35,807 nucleotides of DNA, from positions 1 through 35,807 of the forward strand of contig PMZI01000053.1 in NCBI GenBank assembly GCA_003170475.1, read 5' to 3'. This DNA comes from Ignavibacteriota bacterium. GTDB lineage: Bacteria; Bacteroidota; Ignavibacteria; UBA10030. Each line of letters begins with the position of its first letter. The first letter of the stretch is position 1. The notes under the pieces are model-generated. The model did not search any database. It saw nothing but the letters and a program-made list of their open reading frames with translations, and had not been told where the DNA came from. Positions 3,666-12,843 of the stretch are shown piece by piece. Both the position numbers and the translations under genes were made by a program.

Positions 3666-3811
3666 CAGTCGTCTCGAACCTTCAAGAGACATTGGGCAAC
3701 GCCTGCAGCCTGAGGCTAACCCGCTCTATGGGCATCCCACAGCAAGTTTTCCTCCCTTTTTGCATCTTACCTCTTGTAGAAACAGTTGTGGCCATCCACA
3801 CCGCAATCCAA
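3666..3811. other. Probable promoter region of the sigma factor operon
   Basis: This gap of about 146 bp precedes the sigma factor trio. It is pyrimidine-rich toward its end (TTTTCCTCCCTTTTTGCATC). The frame of the sigma gene stays open through it, but the translation is low quality and not sigma-like. An in-frame GTG at 3788 is an alternative start. I see no confident -35/-10 pair. Confidence 0.35.
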
Positions 3812-4363
3812 ATGACATTTCCTGAAGACAAAGAACTGCTGAATCAGATCCGTGCCGGCAACGAACGCGCCTTCACGGATCTGTACAACAAGCACCGACG
3901 AAGACTGTTGGCGTACTGCTTTCGACTGCTGCAGGACAGAGCTACGGCCGAAGATGCTGTGCAGGTTGCATTTCAAAAAGCATATGAATCGCTCAACTCA
4001 CTCGACAAACCAGAGCTCTTTTTCTACTGGCTGTACAGCATCGCACGCAATGAGGTTTATGGAGCAATTCGAAAGACGAGGAAGAACGGCACGACTTCTT
4101 CCATTGAGGATGAGAAAGATATCTGGGATGAGGAGACGCCACTCGAGCTCATCGTCAAGACCGAACTGGCAGAACTGGTACAATATCATCTCAATCATCT
4201 GAAAGTAGAGTACCGGGAGGTCCTGGTGCTGCGGCAATACGACAGGCTGACGTACGCAGAGATAGCGGCCATCACCGGAGCCACCATCAGCTCGGTTGAA
4301 TCAAGACTGTTCAAGGCGCGAAAAGCCTTGGCGAAGAAGCTGGAGCCGTATTTCAGGCAATAA
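3812..4363 (+). CDS. ECF-type RNA polymerase sigma-70 family factor
   Basis: A 183-aa extracytoplasmic-function sigma factor with only regions 2 and 4. Region 2 lies at about 20-90: the AFTDLYNKHRRRLLAYCFRL helix, a DRATAEDAVQVAFQKAY segment of the type that contacts core polymerase and the -10 element, and WLYSIARNEV. Region 4 lies at about 115-180, with the helix-turn-helix LTYAEIAAITGATISSVESR. The ATG at 3812 puts region 2 close to the N terminus as is usual. The next gene encodes a zinc-finger anti-sigma protein, and the third is a sensor-like membrane protein, so this is probably a stress or envelope regulator held inactive at the membrane. Targets cannot be read from the window. Confidence 0.93.
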   Translation: MTFPEDKELLNQIRAGNERAFTDLYNKHRRRLLAYCFRLLQDRATAEDAVQVAFQKAYESLNSLDKPELFFYWLYSIARNEVYGAIRKTRKNGTTSSIEDEKDIWDEETPLELIVKTELAELVQYHLNHLKVEYREVLVLRQYDRLTYAEIAAITGATISSVESRLFKARKALAKKLEPYFRQ

Positions 4364-4417
4364 CGAGAGTTCCATGTTGGTGAGAACGGTTAGGAAAATG
4401 AGTGGAGGAGCAGAACA

Positions 4418-4822
4418 ATGACCTGCAACGAATGTCAACGAGCGATCAACAAGCTTCTTGACGGCGAAGTCACCGCCGCATCAAGTAGTGATTTGTTCGA
4501 TCATCTCACAAAGTGTGGTGACTGCAGAAGGTTCTTTGATGCGATGGCTTTGATCGGGCGAGAAATGGAGAAGAGTCAGCAGTTGGACGAACCAATGACC
4601 GCGTTGGCATGGAACGCAGGTTCAAGAAAGGACCCGCGACATTCGATCGCTGGAATTTCAATTCAACGCCAGACCCGTCAAAGCCGATTCAGAACGCTCG
4701 TTGTTGTGAGCGCTCTTATTCTCCTCACGGGGTTGTTCTGGACGACAGCCATACTCAGTCGACCAATCGAGCGAACTGATGCCGTTCAGCAGCTTGTGCA
4801 GCCAGAGACACCGAACCATTAA
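4418..4822 (+). CDS. Membrane-anchored zinc-finger (ZAS-type) anti-sigma factor
   Basis: A 134-aa protein. The N-terminal cytoplasmic segment has the anti-sigma zinc signature: Cys3, Cys6 and an HxxxCxxC at His29, Cys33, Cys36. A single transmembrane helix follows at about 93-113 (LVVVSALILLTGLFWTTAI), leaving a short outer tail of about 20 residues. The domain binds and blocks a partner ECF sigma factor, here the gene 54 nt upstream. A good ribosome binding site (GGAGGAG) precedes the ATG at 4418. The outer tail is too short to be an elaborate sensor, which makes the following CHASE2-like protein a plausible signal input. Confidence 0.88.
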   Translation: MTCNECQRAINKLLDGEVTAASSSDLFDHLTKCGDCRRFFDAMALIGREMEKSQQLDEPMTALAWNAGSRKDPRHSIAGISIQRQTRQSRFRTLVVVSALILLTGLFWTTAILSRPIERTDAVQQLVQPETPNH

Positions 4823-4837
4823 ATGCGAGGTGGTGCC

Positions 4838-6349
4838 ATGCGATCCTTTAGAAATATATCTTCTTTGACGATTGTCATCTACTTTGTTCTTGCGATGATA
4901 TTCGCTGCATGCAGCATGCTGGCGAGCCGACTGCCCGGGCTGCAATACACGCCGACCGCTGGCACGTTTGTGATCAAGAATAATCTTAACTGGATATTTT
5001 GGCTCTTCATTGTACTTTCCACTCTATGTGTGCTTCCACTTCTGAATGCGCTGCTCTATCAGCTACATCTTCGAAAAGCCTTGCCGCGTGCTCTTGCTGA
5101 ATTGTATGAAGAAGAGACCTCATCGGAAAAAGAAGGTTTCTTCCACTGGCTCAAGAAAAAGGTAGGGAGTGAGGATGGAAGGATTATTCTCGTGGGGATG
5201 GCTATCTTCGCTCCGGTTTTCATTCTTTCCCTGACAAACGCGGTGAGAGAAAACGATGTGGACAGTTACATCTACGAGTACATTTCAAGAGTTGTCGGAA
5301 AAAGGGCATTCGACCGCATGGAATCTCCACCTGTGACACACGGTATTTTCTTTTATGATAGGGATAATGCGAAATATCTCAAAGGATGCTTGTCGATTGT
5401 TGAGGAGTTGAAGAGAGTGGGTGCTCGAGCGGTCTTGGTCGATATTCGCGATATACGATGGGGCGAGCGGAACCAGGATGTCTTTCCTCTGTTGAAGAAA
5501 ATGGAAAACACCGGAATTGCAGTGTTGGGTTTGCCAATGTGGTCGGACCTGCGAATTGCGGACTCGACAGGGGAGTTTGCATTCTCAAAGGGGCGAATGA
5601 CCATGCAGCCGTTCGAACTCCGATTGAATCCGTTTCTCTTTCGAGTCAGGCTGCAAGACAAATCGAGCGGCAACAAGTTATCCGTTCCCGACATCTCAGT
5701 GGAGCTCCTGCGAAAATACCATCGTTATTCGCGGGCGATCGCGCCAGCGACGGATGCAGGCGTGGTTGAGTTCGGCGACTACCGGCTTCCCGTTGACGCT
5801 GATGAATGGATGTACGCTCGCCAGTCCTCCGCCGTATACATGGAACGGACAATAGTCGTATCATACATGGGAGATTCCAGCGCCAACCTGAGGTTCAGCG
5901 GTGTTTATAGCAAGAAGAATTTCTCCGACCCATTCACGCTTGAAGACCTCAAGGGCGACTATGAAGGCAAGATAGTCTTCATTGTTCGGGGGGATCCAAC
6001 CTCCATGGAGAACGGATGGCTGCTGGGTAATTCCTACCGAAGTGTGCTCGAGTCCATTGTCTCACAAACTGTGGTTGTGCGATCGCAGACCCTGCACATC
6101 TGGCTGACAATACTTTGCATAGTCTGTGCAGGGTTTATTGCGAGTAGATTCCGACCGATGCCAGCATTACTTTCGATCTTCGCTCTTGGGGTGGTCATCC
6201 TTCTTGGGACATGGCTGGTCTATCAACGATTCTATCTTCTCGTCGACGTGTTCTACCCCTTGCTAGCTACGGGCATGTCGATGTTCATCTTCCCGGCATT
6301 ACGGGTGGCAGAGACGCCGCAGGAGAACGAGCGGCAGGCGTTGTCTTGA
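4838..6349 (+). CDS. CHASE2-like membrane sensor lacking an output domain
   Basis: A 503-aa integral membrane protein. Hydrophobic helices lie at about 8-28, 48-72 and 115-135, followed by a roughly 270-residue extracytoplasmic domain and three closely spaced C-terminal helices in the last 85 residues. The loop domain follows the CHASE2 pattern: a VGARAVLVDIRDIRWGERNQ stretch, an IAVLG strand, a VPDISVELLRKY helix, a VVSYMGD strand and a GKIVFIVRGDP segment before the C-terminal helices. CHASE2 proteins normally continue into a kinase, cyclase or similar module; here the protein ends about 15 residues after the last helix. GAGGTGG before the ATG at 4838 decides the start, although an in-frame ATG at 4823 touches the anti-sigma stop. 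Tight spacing implies co-transcription with the sigma and anti-sigma genes. The CHASE2 assignment is from pattern only. Confidence 0.7.
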   Translation: MRSFRNISSLTIVIYFVLAMIFAACSMLASRLPGLQYTPTAGTFVIKNNLNWIFWLFIVLSTLCVLPLLNALLYQLHLRKALPRALAELYEEETSSEKEGFFHWLKKKVGSEDGRIILVGMAIFAPVFILSLTNAVRENDVDSYIYEYISRVVGKRAFDRMESPPVTHGIFFYDRDNAKYLKGCLSIVEELKRVGARAVLVDIRDIRWGERNQDVFPLLKKMENTGIAVLGLPMWSDLRIADSTGEFAFSKGRMTMQPFELRLNPFLFRVRLQDKSSGNKLSVPDISVELLRKYHRYSRAIAPATDAGVVEFGDYRLPVDADEWMYARQSSAVYMERTIVVSYMGDSSANLRFSGVYSKKNFSDPFTLEDLKGDYEGKIVFIVRGDPTSMENGWLLGNSYRSVLESIVSQTVVVRSQTLHIWLTILCIVCAGFIASRFRPMPALLSIFALGVVILLGTWLVYQRFYLLVDVFYPLLATGMSMFIFPALRVAETPQENERQALS

Positions 6350-6416
6350 ACATGTGCTGTCGCGGACTGACGGGGCGAAGCTCTAATGGGATGGGCAGGA
6401 CTGTGACAGTCTTCGA

Positions 6417-6442
6417 CTCCCCGCTTTCTATATGGCGGGGAG
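6417..6442 (+). terminator. Hairpin downstream of the CHASE2-like gene
   Basis: An 8-bp perfect stem, CTCCCCGC (6417-6424) with GCGGGGAG (6435-6442), and a 10-nt loop, 68 nt after the stop codon. No T-run follows, so it is at best a weak terminator or an mRNA 3' end structure. Confidence 0.4.
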
Positions 6443-6452
6443 GAGGGCAGCA

Positions 6453-6638
6453 TTACGCTGCATTTCCTTTCAGTGCCGCTTCGACTTTCTCAAATACTAC
6501 AAGCACTAGCCCGTCGCTGTTCGTCAACACTTCAGCATTCTTGAATCGAAGCACCTCCAAGCCATCACTTCGCAAATCAGCGTCCCGTATCTTGTCCCGC
6601 CGTTTTCCTTTGGGTGTGAAATGTTGAGCGTCGTCGAC
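6453..6638 (-). pseudogene. DUF559 nuclease-like remnant, C-terminal half only
   Basis: About 61 codons on the minus strand match the C-terminal half of the DUF559 (Vsr/MTES-like endonuclease fold) family: VDDAQHFTPKG, then IRDADLRSDGLEVLRFKNAEVL and a final GLVLVVFEKVEAAL helix. The family normally has 110-130 residues, with an N-terminal LW..LR / KFRRQ part and an acidic catalytic pair. Here the first half is missing: similarity stops at about 6638, only 7 bp from the arm of the palindromic element at 6645-6798. The frame continues for 14 unrelated residues. I infer a decayed, non-functional gene truncated at or by that element. Confidence 0.7.
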
Positions 6639-6829: not shown

Positions 6830-9800
6830 CTATTGCTTCTGCATTTCAAGCTTCTGCAGCGAATCAAAATATTTACGGATGAGCTCCTGATAGTCTTTGG
6901 AGTATCCATGTTCGAGGGATTTGAGGAGATCTTCCAAAAGCTTGTTCTTTCCTTCCAGCAACGAGGGATCAAGCTCGCCGGGACCACGGCGGACGATTTG
7001 AGTGCCTGTCGTGGCTTTTCGTTTTTTCTCATAGTCACGTTCATGCATTGACTTTGAGGCATCGAGCAAACGCGAGAGAATTCGCTCCTGCTTGCGAACG
7101 GTCTCCGGATTGACGTTGTTCTGTGTGAGGTTCTGAACCACTTCTTTCATCTCTTCGGCAATCTTATCGAGATCGCCAAGCATATTCTTCTGCTCGCCGC
7201 TCGCCTGCGCTTCCTTGTTGAGTTGTTCCAATGACTTGCGAACAGCTTCCTGCTCGACGGCAAGGCGCGCGGCCTCGGCCGCCTGCTGCATGCTCTGCGT
7301 CTGGGCGTTGATGGATTGCTGCTGCCCCGCCATCATTTGCAGTTGTTGCAGCAGTCCGCCCATCCCGGACCCGCTCCCTTGCTTCATCATGTTTTGCATG
7401 GCCCCCTGAAGCTGCGTGGCAGTCTTGTTCAAGGAGCTCATCGATTGGCCCTCTTCCTGCGATGCGCCGTAGCCGTTACGCCCTTCAAGGGCTTCGAGGG
7501 ATCCCTGCATGTGCGCCATCGCCTCGCCGATCGACCGTCCAATTTCCGGCGTCACGGCAAACGATCGTTTCGACAACTCACCCAATCCACGAATGACGTT
7601 CTGCATATCCTGCATCGCTCGCATCTGATCCTGAGCGTTTTGGCGCAATTGCGGTGAGTTGGTCGGCGCCGCCTGTGATTGGTGCTTCAGGCTTTCTTCG
7701 CGCTTGGATAGTTCCAGCATGTCGTTCGTCGCCCGGCGAAGCGCATTGAGTGTCTGCTGCATCTGCTTTTGCAACATCTCCTGCTGAATCGATTGCAGTT
7801 CCTTTGATTGCTCCTGGAGTTGTTGCCCAACTTGCTGCTGTGCTTGTTGTGCTTGCTGCATCTGTCCGGCCTGCATCTGTTTGCCGGCCTGCGTCATCTT
7901 TTGTCCAAGCTGCTGCGCCTGCATCTGGGCATTCAACTGCTGCATGCGATCGGCAGGCATCTCGGTAAAGAACTCCTCCATGCGCTTCTGGACATCGGCT
8001 GTTTCCTGTTCGAGCTGTCGCTGTTTCTCTGCCAGATCGTTCTGTTTCTTGGCGACCTCGTTTCGTTTCTGCTCGTCTTCCGTCCCCTTGGCAGTTTCCT
8101 GAGACAATTCCTTCTGAGCCTGCTCGAGCTCTTGCGCGCGCTTCCGTGCTTCGTCAATCTTTTGCTCGATTTGAATGCGCTTCAGAAGCTCAATGGTGCG
8201 CTCGATGCTCTGACGGAAACGGTCCTCAGAAAATGTGAGTTTCTGCATTGCCTGCTGGAGCTGTTCTTTATTCAGGTTCTGCATTGATTGCTGCATTTGT
8301 TTCAGCGCCTGCTGAAGCTCGGCGGAGTTCATCTGCTCGAACATCTGCTGCAACTCGAGATACTTCTCCATCGTCTCTTTTGAAAGAACCTGCTGCTGGT
8401 CCATCTTCTGGACCATCTCGCTGACCTTATTCTGGACGTTATCCAATTTCTTCTGGAGCTCCTGGTACTTCTTCGACATCTCCTCCAGCTTCTTCTGCTG
8501 CTGCCAATCCATCTCCTTGTTCTTCTTCATATCCTGGTTGACGGACTCGATCTTTTCCTTCAACTGCTTGGCGTCCTCAAGCGCCTGCTTCATATCATCG
8601 AGCGATGCCTCGTGCCCTTTGTCCACCTCTGCGAACACTTCTTCGAGCGAAGGAAGTCGGATGAGAAATATCTGACTCTTTCCTGACTTGGGACCGTGAA
8701 CAGCATCATTGTCAAACACCTCTGCAAAATACTCGATGACATCTTCGGGTACGAGGTGAAGGGGCGTCAGATCCCATGTGTAGGGCAATTCAAGCTCTGT
8801 GGAAATGCCGGATGGGAGCGCAATGGAGACGTACCGAGGGGCTTCCCAGGGCTTCTCATAACGGGAATGAACCATGCGGTACCCAAGCCGGAGCGCTGAT
8901 ATTCCGAAATCATCTTTCGCTTGTATCAAAAGGCGGATTAGTGGATCTCCGGCCAAATCGAGATTGCGTCCCGGTTGAAGAAGAGCGACCGTGGGCGACT
9001 CATCGGGGATGATTTTGAGTTGATAGCGAATAGGATCGGCATTGACGAGGTTCTCTGCGTCACTCACATCGATATGATAATCCGTCTCGCTTTCGAGTCG
9101 GAACGACGCGGAGAATTTCTGATTGTTCACTGCCAGCGGGAGCGATTTTCCGGCGCCGAAGATAATAGTTCCCGAGCGAAGATCCTTGCTGGCAATTCCC
9201 GTGAGAGTGATCTTGGTACCGGCAAGCGCTGCCACATCACCGGTGAATTCGTCCTGAGCCTTTGGTGGCAGCTTCGTATAGCCGGGGTATTCCAGTCGTA
9301 CCTGAAATGATCGGAACACGGGCCGGTCGACGACGGTGAGTTTGAATCGTTCGCTCTCAGTGTTGGAAATCGTTGCATAGTATTCTGTTGATCCACGGAT
9401 GTTTTGAAATGCAGTCTTGTATGTTCCCACAGAATCAGGTCGAAGTTCAGCGTGCTCGAAGCTCCGAGTTCCATCCAGCCGCCAGAAAAGATCGAGCGTG
9501 TGCCGGTGTGTGGCTTCAGGCAGCAGGTGAACCGTCTGCACGCGGACGGCGACCTGAACTGTTTGTCCTTTGATAACCTCACTGTTTCCCGGCGTTACTT
9601 CGATGGTGAATTCTGAGGGAGAGACAAACTCTCTATTGAAATGAGAGATCCGAAAGAGCGCATCCGAGAATTGTCCGGATGACGGCAGGACAAGGAGGAT
9701 GGCGCCAACAATGCTCGCCGCGAACAGTTTTGTTGAGCGCACAACAGGCGAAGTGTCGATCGAAGCTGTGAAATCGAGATCACGGATGTTCTCCGCGAGG

Positions 9801-10219
9801 TCTTGAAATGAAGCATCCACGAGCTCGGGGGAGTATAACGACCTCCCGGCAACGATCTCCTGATGCAATTGGAGGAGATTCAGCATTCGATCGTGAATTC
9901 GGGGGAACGAGGCTCCAACAGATTTTGCCAGCTCGAAGTCGTTTGCTGAACGAAGAATTCCAAAGGCTTTCAGAACAGGACGGCCAACATACCAGAGGCC
10001 GAAGAAGCCAATACAGGCGGCAGCGACAAAAAAGACAATTGTTCGGCCAGAACTGTCGAGTCTGAACGCGAGTTCGAGAAGCGACGCGGCAACAAGCGTG
10101 AGGATGACAATTGCTGAGAATGAAAGGAGGTTGGCGCGAAGCTCAACAGAGTGCTGACGCTTGCGCGTGGCGGAGAGACGCTTCAGGATCTCGCTCAGTA
10201 TGTTAGCGGAGTCGGGCAA
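6830..10219 (-). CDS. DUF4175-family membrane protein with long Gln/Met-rich coiled coil
   Basis: An 1129-aa protein. Hydrophobic helices at about 32-50, 60-78 and 166-186 anchor it in the membrane. Residues about 200-530 form beta-rich repeats (EVTPGNSEVIKGQTV, LEYPGYTKLPP, DDFGISALRL) as in the DUF4175 family. From about 540 to 1010 it is an extended coiled coil unusually rich in Gln, Met, Lys and Glu, followed by a helical C-terminal tail. The only start in this frame is a TTG at 10219: an in-frame TGA lies four codons upstream, and no Shine-Dalgarno is visible. In this lineage such proteins occur near DUF4159 and VWA/MoxR-type genes, and DUF4159 is the next minus-strand gene here. Molecular function is unknown. 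The plus-strand Leu-rich frames opposite the coiled coil are shadows. Confidence 0.8.
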   Translation of the reverse strand: MPDSANILSEILKRLSATRKRQHSVELRANLLSFSAIVILTLVAASLLELAFRLDSSGRTIVFFVAAACIGFFGLWYVGRPVLKAFGILRSANDFELAKSVGASFPRIHDRMLNLLQLHQEIVAGRSLYSPELVDASFQDLAENIRDLDFTASIDTSPVVRSTKLFAASIVGAILLVLPSSGQFSDALFRISHFNREFVSPSEFTIEVTPGNSEVIKGQTVQVAVRVQTVHLLPEATHRHTLDLFWRLDGTRSFEHAELRPDSVGTYKTAFQNIRGSTEYYATISNTESERFKLTVVDRPVFRSFQVRLEYPGYTKLPPKAQDEFTGDVAALAGTKITLTGIASKDLRSGTIIFGAGKSLPLAVNNQKFSASFRLESETDYHIDVSDAENLVNADPIRYQLKIIPDESPTVALLQPGRNLDLAGDPLIRLLIQAKDDFGISALRLGYRMVHSRYEKPWEAPRYVSIALPSGISTELELPYTWDLTPLHLVPEDVIEYFAEVFDNDAVHGPKSGKSQIFLIRLPSLEEVFAEVDKGHEASLDDMKQALEDAKQLKEKIESVNQDMKKNKEMDWQQQKKLEEMSKKYQELQKKLDNVQNKVSEMVQKMDQQQVLSKETMEKYLELQQMFEQMNSAELQQALKQMQQSMQNLNKEQLQQAMQKLTFSEDRFRQSIERTIELLKRIQIEQKIDEARKRAQELEQAQKELSQETAKGTEDEQKRNEVAKKQNDLAEKQRQLEQETADVQKRMEEFFTEMPADRMQQLNAQMQAQQLGQKMTQAGKQMQAGQMQQAQQAQQQVGQQLQEQSKELQSIQQEMLQKQMQQTLNALRRATNDMLELSKREESLKHQSQAAPTNSPQLRQNAQDQMRAMQDMQNVIRGLGELSKRSFAVTPEIGRSIGEAMAHMQGSLEALEGRNGYGASQEEGQSMSSLNKTATQLQGAMQNMMKQGSGSGMGGLLQQLQMMAGQQQSINAQTQSMQQAAEAARLAVEQEAVRKSLEQLNKEAQASGEQKNMLGDLDKIAEEMKEVVQNLTQNNVNPETVRKQERILSRLLDASKSMHERDYEKKRKATTGTQIVRRGPGELDPSLLEGKNKLLEDLLKSLEHGYSKDYQELIRKYFDSLQKLEMQKQ

Positions 10220-11526: not shown

Positions 11527-11557
11527 TCCCCGCGAAGTCTTAGCTCCTTCGCGGGGA
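11527..11557 (-). terminator. Rho-independent terminator of the dcw operon
   Basis: An 11-bp perfect GC-rich stem, TCCCCGCGAAG (11527-11537) and CTTCGCGGGGA (11547-11557), with a 9-nt loop. Read on the minus strand it is followed by TTTTTT, the classic form. It lies about 115 nt after the ftsZ stop codon and closes the 16-gene cluster. Confidence 0.93.
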
Positions 11558-11670
11558 CGGAGATGATTGATGCATCCGTGATCGATTTGCAGGACGGGTG
11601 GAACCGCCCTGATGACCACATTCGTATAACAGCAACTCGAGTGGGACAGCAGAACCCGCTCGTTGGATGA

Positions 11671-12843
11671 TTAGTCCATGATCTTTCGCAAGAACGCCGG
11701 CTTATCCGGATCAGCCTTGTCGATTTTTTCGTCACCCCTCTCGGAGTCGCGCGGCGCCTGAATGGAAATGTCAATGCCGCGACGCAAGAATGTGGGCTCT
11801 TCGAACTTCTGCAAGTCATTCGGTCCGGACGGAATGCGATCAATCAGTTTCGACACCGTCTTCGGCGGCACTTTCACTGCCATGGCCTTCTTGTTGAAGC
11901 CGGTGGCGATGACTGTCACCATGATCTCGTCCTTCATGTTTTCATCGATCACCGTACCGAGGATGACGTTTGCGTCATCACCGGCTGCGTCGTGAATGAC
12001 ACTCGTGGCTTCATCGACTTCTACGAGGGACATGTTTTTGCCGCCTGTTACGTTGATGAGAATGCCCTGTGCGCCGGCGATGGAGACACCATCGAGCAGC
12101 GGGCTTGAAATTGCAGCGTGCGCTGCCTCAACGGCACGATTCTCACCCGTCGCAATACCGGAGCCCATCAGTGCGTCGCCCATCTCGCGCATCACCGTGC
12201 GAACATCTGCGAAATCAACATTGATCAGTCCGGAGACAGTGATCAGCTCGGAAATTCCACGCGTCGCGTTGTGCAGAACCTCGTTCGCCAGCTCGAAGGC
12301 GTCGAGCAGCGGAGTGTGCCGATCGATGATGTCCAGCAGCTTCTGGTTGGGGATGACGATCAGGGTATCGACTTGCTTCTTCAACTCTTCAATTCCCTCT
12401 TCAGCCTGAGCCATCCGCCGTTTTCCTTCGCTGTTAAACGGCCTTGTAACAATTCCGACGACGAGAGCGCCGAGACTCTTGGCGATATTGGCTACGATGG
12501 GGCCTCCGCCGGTCCCGGTGCCGCCTCCCATGCCTGCTGTGACGAAAACCATATCACTGCCTGCGATGGCACGAGCGATTTCCTCCCGATCCTCTTCCAC
12601 GGCCCGATGGCCGATCGTAGGATCAGCGCCGGCACCGAGACCCCGGGTCAGTGTCTTTCCGACCTGGATCTTTTGCGATGCCTTATTGCGTTCCAGCGCC
12701 TGGACGTCGCAGTTGATTGCAATGAAATCGACTCCGGCCAATCCTCTGTCGATCATGCTGTTGACGGCGTTTCCACCGCCGCCACCAACGCCAACTACAC
12801 GAATCTTTGCCCCGCGGTCCGCTAAGGTGTCAAGTTCAATCAC
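11671..12843 (-). CDS. ftsZ: Cell division protein FtsZ
   Basis: A tubulin-like GTPase of 390 aa that polymerises into the Z-ring at midcell. The glycine-rich N-terminal nucleotide-binding loop ([14 protein letters not shown], 17-30) and the tubulin signature GGGTGTGGG (106-114) are intact, as are the [10 protein letters not shown] segment and the T7-loop region ([11 protein letters not shown]). The C terminus has a short charged linker (about 355-380) ending in [10 protein letters not shown], the conserved tail peptide that binds FtsA and other partners. The start is a GTG at 12843, set by AAGGAG eight bases upstream. It is the last gene of the dcw operon, separated from ftsA by 74 nt, and is followed by a strong terminator. 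Confidence 0.98.

Follow-up and report, generated by a model that had tools for sequence, protein, structure and literature searches.

A CHASE2-like membrane protein without an output domain is encoded in a recurrent operon with an extracytoplasmic function sigma factor and a zinc-finger anti-sigma factor

We analyzed a stretch of 35,807 nucleotides from the 4.08-Mb genome of an Ignavibacteriota bacterium (assembly GCA_003170475.1, contig PMZI01000053.1, positions 1 to 35,807 of the forward strand), hereafter called the window, and report on three of its genes, which encode an extracytoplasmic function (ECF) sigma factor, a zf-HC2 anti-sigma factor, and a CHASE2-like membrane protein, P0003 (Table 1). 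A preliminary description of this DNA had presented them as tightly spaced and co-oriented, with which coordinates and strand agree, all three lying on the + strand with intergenic gaps of 54 and 15 nucleotides. A purine-rich GAGGTGG can be read directly before the start of the CHASE2-like gene at 4838. The first protein is an ECF sigma factor by its domain content: PF04542 and PF08281 score above cut-off, Pfam lists no region 3 family, and TIGR02937 is matched with 92.6 bits against a cut-off of 42.9. The gene directly after it encodes a zf-HC2 anti-sigma factor of the zinc-binding anti-sigma (ZAS) type, PF13490 being matched with 27.4 bits (cut-off 22.2). Its C...HxxxCxxC residues, as read in the sequence, are C3, H29, C33, and C36, which presumably bind zinc.

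Table 1. Features of the operon and its flanks in the window (aa, amino acids)
Feature	Position	Strand	Basis
ECF-type promoter-like element GCAAGTTTT-N10-TGCATCTTA before sigma gene	3742..3769	+	block conserved ahead of sigma orthologues in the genus
ECF sigma factor, 183 aa	3812..4363	+	Pfam Sigma70_r2 2.6e-15, Sigma70_r4_2 5.4e-15
zf-HC2 anti-sigma factor, 134 aa	4418..4822	+	PF13490 3.6e-6, residues 3-37, above cut-off
Single membrane helix of anti-sigma factor, residues 94-112	4697..4753	+	hydropathy
Outer tail of anti-sigma factor, about 22 residues (21-22 by method)	4754..4819	+	hydropathy; no TonB_C-type tail motif
CHASE2-like membrane protein P0003 without output domain, 503 aa	4838..6349	+	family profile against CHASE2, hhalign
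N-terminal three-helix module of P0003, residues 10-134, charged 42-residue loop between helices 2 and 3	4865..5239	+	hydropathy
CHASE2-like extracytoplasmic domain, residues about 142-417	5261..6088	+	ectodomain-only hhalign
Three C-terminal helices, residues 418-485	6089..6292	+	hydropathy; helices-only hhalign Prob 88.5
Strong hairpin 3' of last gene	6409..6448	+	-27.1 kcal/mol, z -4.4; no T-run behind

P0003 has six helices in a sliding-window hydropathy analysis (residues about 10-28, 55-73, 116-134, 418-436, 443-461, and 467-485), and its ectodomain of about 270 residues lies between helices 3 and 4. In the N-terminal module, W52, F54, W55, P67, and P83 are invariant across alignment A1, which comprises five orthologues of P0003. 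The C-terminal helix trio has the same arrangement as that found behind CHASE2 in the compared receptor proteins. Neither Pfam nor NCBIfam finds an output domain such as a kinase or cyclase in P0003, and only 18 residues remain past the last helix. The preliminary description had said as much, counting six helices and about 15 residues after the last. AlphaFold2 monomer models built from four sequences reach predicted local distance difference test (pLDDT) values of 48 for the whole protein and 51 for residues 108-503.

Known CHASE2 domains serve as sensors and are fused to enzymes such as cyclases and kinases. Their role as the sensing domains of cyclases is described in the available excerpts of one study (PMC13001267). 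P0003 itself falls outside the Pfam family, with no match to PF05226 even at an E value of 10, and only two of the five A1 members match Pfam CHASE2, both below cut-off (best E 0.0016). Profile-profile comparison with hhalign gives a different picture. A1 matches A2, an alignment of 17 CHASE2 proteins collected with the Pfam model from the same genome and its relatives, with a probability of 98.6 and an E value of 8e-16 over 343 columns, which span the ectodomain and the helix trio behind it. The ectodomains were also compared alone, which excludes matching driven by the helices, and still match with a probability of 96.6 (E 5e-10); a reversed profile reached 0.1, and five column-shuffled profiles reached 0.0-1.9. 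A third family, A3, whose members have one helix and no output domain, links the two (A1-A3 E 2e-35, A3-A2 E 1e-21), and one such one-helix relative, L032, passes Pfam CHASE2 (26.9 bits against a cut-off of 26.3) while matching the window family profile at 2.7e-33. NCBIfam returned nothing usable for P0003 or the family around it, and the eight matches in a PDB sequence search, the best of them a designed repeat protein (E 0.0008), were judged to be due to chance. Three Pfam-positive CHASE2 proteins occur in the same genome, all encoded by genes other than that of P0003. Since the profile-profile matches are strong and Pfam gives none, P0003 is, on these alignments, a divergent relative of CHASE2 that the Pfam family in its present definition does not cover. 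This bears out the earlier view of a CHASE2-like protein without output, which had been staked on a profile match: the plain Pfam search came out negative, the profile-profile search did not.

One of the closest known architectures, judging from the excerpts of PMC13001267, is that of the CHASE2 receptor adenylate/guanylate cyclases CyaD1, CyaD2, and CyaK, which likewise consist of a helix, a CHASE2 domain, and three helices, and whose signalling runs through the cyclase with an outer-membrane protein upstream; the likeness rests on the 343 columns shared with CHASE2 proteins of relatives rather than on CyaD1, CyaD2, and CyaK themselves. Unlike these cyclases, P0003 carries no output domain, has two additional N-terminal helices, and falls below the Pfam CHASE2 cut-off; it also lacks the WPWPR and YYGPxG stretches of the A2 consensus. 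A six-helix sensor of the same type, in which Pfam does not recognize CHASE2 either, is fused to a Guanylate_cyc domain (2.9e-56) at locus L033 (5386-7518, - strand). Because that sensor carries a cyclase, the module appears able to drive outputs.

The three genes recur together. Searched with the A1 profile at an E value of 1e-8 or better, 15 of the 98 genomes of the order give a match, and a class sample of 391 genomes, with at most three candidates scored per genome, yielded the same 15 and added none. Among 23 places that were sorted, 11 window-type genes, the window's included, have visible upstream DNA; this count leaves out the cyclase-fused L033 and two C-terminal pieces of sensors that lie at the ends of contigs (G005:C398 and G015:C226). 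A sigma factor and an anti-sigma factor lie directly upstream of the sensor in nine of the 11 (genomes G000, G002, G003, G005 twice, G021, G045, G027, and G088), which belong to five genera in two families of a single order and whose sensors share as little as 19% identity with P0003. This recurrence at such low identity indicates that the association exceeds chance. The synteny survey that the preliminary description had called for thus finds the linkage it predicted in relatives, and gene order identifies sigma factor, anti-sigma factor, and second membrane protein as a conserved operon, with co-transcription predicted. Seven of the nine linked sensors are whole with six helices, although for G027 the hydropathy threshold had to be lowered to see them; the others, one G005 copy (69 residues, two helices) and that of G045 (200 residues, three helices), are cut by contig ends. 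A single-sequence scan of the genome contigs found nothing, an alignment scan found three loci, all already known, and tblastn found none in plasmids. An apparent fusion of anti-sigma factor and CHASE2 at L040 was rejected, the long open reading frame (ORF) crossing the anti-sigma gene (11537-11977) in another frame; the sensor there probably starts at the methionine of MNEEDS. At L039 (8638-14164, - strand), a one-helix output-less CHASE2-like gene stands in a row with genes for YdjM, two SpoIIE-domain proteins, and a 249-residue membrane protein.

Upstream of the operon lies an element whose position, spacing, and -35-like half agree, as we take it, with an ECF promoter. It occurs, exactly or with one base changed, ahead of six sigma orthologues in the genus, and the element or a close variant precedes eight of the nine CHASE2-like operons, the exception being G021. 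A 30-base form, searched with up to three mismatches, is found at six places in five of the six genus genomes, each ahead of these sigma genes, with none in G004 and zero control matches. In the window's own genome, the operon's element is the only site at two mismatches or fewer; at up to three there are five sites against four control sites. The GCAAG variant is shared by the orthologues of the window sigma factor, by L030, and by L167, a sigma/anti-sigma pair followed by a TonB_C gene. A promoter exclusive to CHASE2-like operons is ruled out, the CATCTT version also occurring in eight of 22 such TonB_C pairs; for this reason the element marks a class of sigma factor rather than its partner. 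We infer that it functions as a promoter and that the sigma factor thereby regulates its own operon. In L047 (4002-6351, genome G001), an orthologous sigma gene retains an intact promoter element, no adjacent anti-sigma factor or sensor was detected, and the next ORF encodes 575 residues that look thioredoxin-like by eye. At the other end of the window operon, the hairpin listed in Table 1 possibly marks the end of the transcript; a terminator scan did not list it and listed a weak neighbour at 6447-6461 (five sites against 2.6 expected). Beyond it, a gene for a DUF4175 protein (6830-10219, - strand) is convergent with the operon, and L026, L027, L031, and L042 each have an opposite-strand ORF of nearly the same length as this one next to a sensor gene or a fragment of one.

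The operon belongs to a larger set of cassettes. From chosen loci, 46 sigma rows were assembled, of which the seven with no detected anti-sigma factor were left out. The third genes of the remaining 39 pairs are TonB_C in 22, CHASE2-like in nine, and of other kinds in seven, one pair ending at a contig edge. The TonB_C class was confirmed with Pfam for seven of ten proteins scanned and otherwise assigned with a profile built from those, and L036 and L040 were assigned to CHASE2 by hand, their sensors being visible but overlooked by the filter. TonB_C cassettes include L026 3171-5653, L045 5285-7221, L046, L048 4101-5991, L049 3750-5616, L051 5745-6377, L052-L059, L167, L170, L172, L174-L177, and L182.

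The anti-sigma tails differ with the partner. The preliminary description had argued from a tail of only about 20 residues that the anti-sigma factor is poorly equipped to sense. The length stands. Tails average 23.4 residues in CHASE2-like operons (range 16-33, n = 9), against 34.2 in TonB_C operons (22-45, n = 22) and 31.4 in other pairs (23-47, n = 7), but the ranges overlap, and the short tail alone is a weak argument for a separate sensor. When sigma factors less than 50% identical are compared, the nearest neighbour of a TonB_C-pair tail is another TonB_C-pair tail in 22 of 22 cases, and the mean similarity score is 35 among TonB_C pairs against 17 between these and other tails. Most TonB_C-pair tails carry a motif resembling YVxxLPxVEVxGY. 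Its loose form, picked once the tails had been seen (an initial, poorly built expression had matched 12 of the 22), is present in 19 of 22 TonB_C pairs, none of the nine CHASE2 pairs, one of seven others, and not in the single contig-edge pair; the strict form is present in 14 TonB_C pairs and in none of the rest. A likeness of these tails to a TonB box, suggested on inspection, found no support: 22 tails matched 30 plug-proximal segments no better than shuffled sequences did (mean z 0.20).

A third tail class, resembling EIPxxLIxKIPxxL, is seen in L027 1751-4308, L045 9312-11001, L048 184-1886, L050 937-1995, and L051 8588-9600. The third proteins of the pairs in L027, L045, and L048 have several hydrophobic helices, and the two that were scanned, those of L027 and L048, have no credible Pfam match. 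Four ECF sigma cassettes, whose third genes are of three kinds, are packed into about 16 kb in L045/L026 (G002:C7:145353-160742). In L048, an ammonium transporter gene (PF00909) stands between two cassettes; a similarly sized ORF with several helices occupies the same place in L045.

On the best sigma tree, from which the contig-edge row was excluded, the kind of partner changes seven times, and well-supported branches force at least two changes for each main kind. Eleven of the 36 inner branches of this tree are weak and some long branches meet; an independent-pairs test had just two usable pairs on starred branches. The nearest relative of the window sigma clade is L167, a TonB_C-linked sigma factor (support 97/96). 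This suggests that different kinds of partner have been swapped on a shared core.

Within the genus, the operons themselves are mosaic. The sigma factors of G000 and G003 group together (85% identical; support 92/99 in a seven-row tree), and the sensors group as G000 with G002 (48% identical) and G003 with G005. In the approximately unbiased (AU) test, the sigma factor rejects G000+G002 (p-AU 0.0004) and G003+G005 (0.0001), and the sensor rejects G000+G003 (6e-16). Sigma factor and zinc-finger half taken together reject G000+G002 (0.0125) and leave G000+G003 open (0.55). The zinc-finger half alone resolves nothing (0.24), and the anti-sigma helix and tail alone, in five rows, follow the sensor grouping (97/96; p-AU 0.03 against G000+G003). 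This suggests that a junction lies somewhere from the sigma gene to the anti-sigma helix. Within the genus, that helix and tail have their ancestry in common with the sensor and not with the sigma factor, which fits a unit of helix, tail, and sensor.

Our working model, to which we give a probability of roughly one half, is that the trio forms a three-part transmembrane sigma switch in which the CHASE2-like protein is the membrane partner of the anti-sigma factor. The zinc-finger domain would hold the sigma factor at the membrane. The receptor half of a CHASE2 receptor, with its helix, CHASE2 domain, and three helices, would have been taken over and coupled to the anti-sigma factor by contact, replacing fusion to a cyclase. 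A change in the ectodomain would pass through the helices of the CHASE2-like protein to the anti-sigma helix and short tail and loosen the zinc-finger grip, and the freed sigma factor would raise expression of its own operon. This model draws on the CHASE2 relation, the conserved gene order, the cyclase fusion in L033, the promoter-like elements, the mosaicism of the operons, and the difference in kind between TonB_C-pair and CHASE2-operon tails.

There are precedents for its parts. In the RseA/RseB system with RpoE and in FecR systems, the single-pass anti-sigma factor receives its signal through an envelope protein distinct from it; the partners there reside in the periplasm or the outer membrane and are not polytopic CHASE2-like proteins. 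The nearest working analogue, and the presumed working mode, would be sigM-yhdL-yhdK of Bacillus subtilis, likewise a three-gene operon for an ECF sigma factor, a membrane anti-sigma factor, and a second membrane protein (PMC6827917, PMC11081497). The excerpts of these papers portray it as autoregulated and as encoding a two-protein anti-sigma complex, in which full YhdL activity needs the transmembrane protein YhdK (PMC6827917) and which is thought to be allosterically controlled and responsive to a lipid carrier (PMC11081497); autoregulation of the window operon is only proposed. They do not describe YhdK as a CHASE2-like receptor part. A partial parallel comes from Campylobacterota, in which, according to the excerpts of PMC9239204, CHASE2 cyclases cluster with FecR-domain outer-membrane proteins, again placing CHASE2 beside parts of ECF pathways; the CHASE2 protein there keeps its cyclase, whereas that of the window has none and adjoins a cognate sigma/anti-sigma pair.

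Several observations weigh against a sigma switch. The contact between sensor and anti-sigma factor within the membrane, the signal, and the direction of control are all presumed. Two of the 11 window-type genes stand without the pair: that of G049, an open frame, adjoins a 62-residue remnant of a sigma factor and no anti-sigma factor, and that of G015 is a piece of 216 residues, interrupted by a stop within the match, with no pair visible nearby. None of 11 one-helix output-less relatives has a sigma pair nearby, upstream DNA being short in L032 and L035, and L032 is the only one of nine scanned that passes Pfam CHASE2, the other eight giving no match. CHASE2-operon tails find their nearest neighbour in another CHASE2-operon tail in only three of nine cases (sigma factors less than 70% identical). 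No regulon wider than the operon emerges, with 52 element sites against 61 control sites in ten genomes at up to three mismatches. The groupings in the tree tests were named once identities were known, and the mosaic needs no protein contact because neighbouring DNA recombines together.

Third genes of this kind could instead be targets of the sigma factor. On this account, which we think unlikely yet the strongest competitor, the anti-sigma factor senses alone and the sigma factor induces an envelope protein of its own operon. Transcription from the promoter-like element would take in all three genes, the TonB_C third proteins of paralogous pairs could be outputs, and a sensor-type gene or piece persists with no pair in G049 and G015. 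P0003 is, however, built as the input half of receptor cyclases, one protein of its type being fused to a cyclase, and two further points count against a mere target: the common ancestry of sensor and anti-sigma helix and tail in the genus, and the difference of TonB_C-pair tails from those of CHASE2 operons. The YhdK precedent, a second membrane protein required for full activity of the anti-sigma factor (excerpts of PMC6827917), also lends itself to a CHASE2-like protein that acts constitutively, as a co-anti-sigma factor or a stabilizer, and senses nothing; we regard this as improbable, an ectodomain of that size and related to a sensing domain seeming to exceed what a scaffold needs. That P0003 works with one of the CHASE2 proteins encoded elsewhere and stands beside the sigma gene by coincidence, as the three Pfam-positive ones in its genome and the one-helix output-less relatives with no sigma neighbour might suggest, is very improbable, linkage in nine of 11 cases across two families being hardly incidental.

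If the trio is a sigma switch, a stand-alone receptor half beside a sigma/anti-sigma pair would show sensing modules shifting between intramolecular and intermolecular signalling, and the promoter of the conserved operon would provide a transcriptional readout for a CHASE2-like protein. In the related cassettes, whose third genes are of other kinds, evolution appears to have swapped domains already, and such swaps make it possible to test directly how the anti-sigma factor perceives its partner. More tentatively, and as a possibility that we hold somewhat less likely than the switch itself, these ECF switches may combine a fixed core (sigma factor, zinc-finger anti-sigma factor, and a promoter type in common) with an envelope partner that can be exchanged, be it a CHASE2-like receptor part, a TonB_C protein, or a small polytopic protein, with the anti-sigma helix and tail as the docking part swapped along with it. 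If true, swapping the membrane half would wire one sigma core to different signals.

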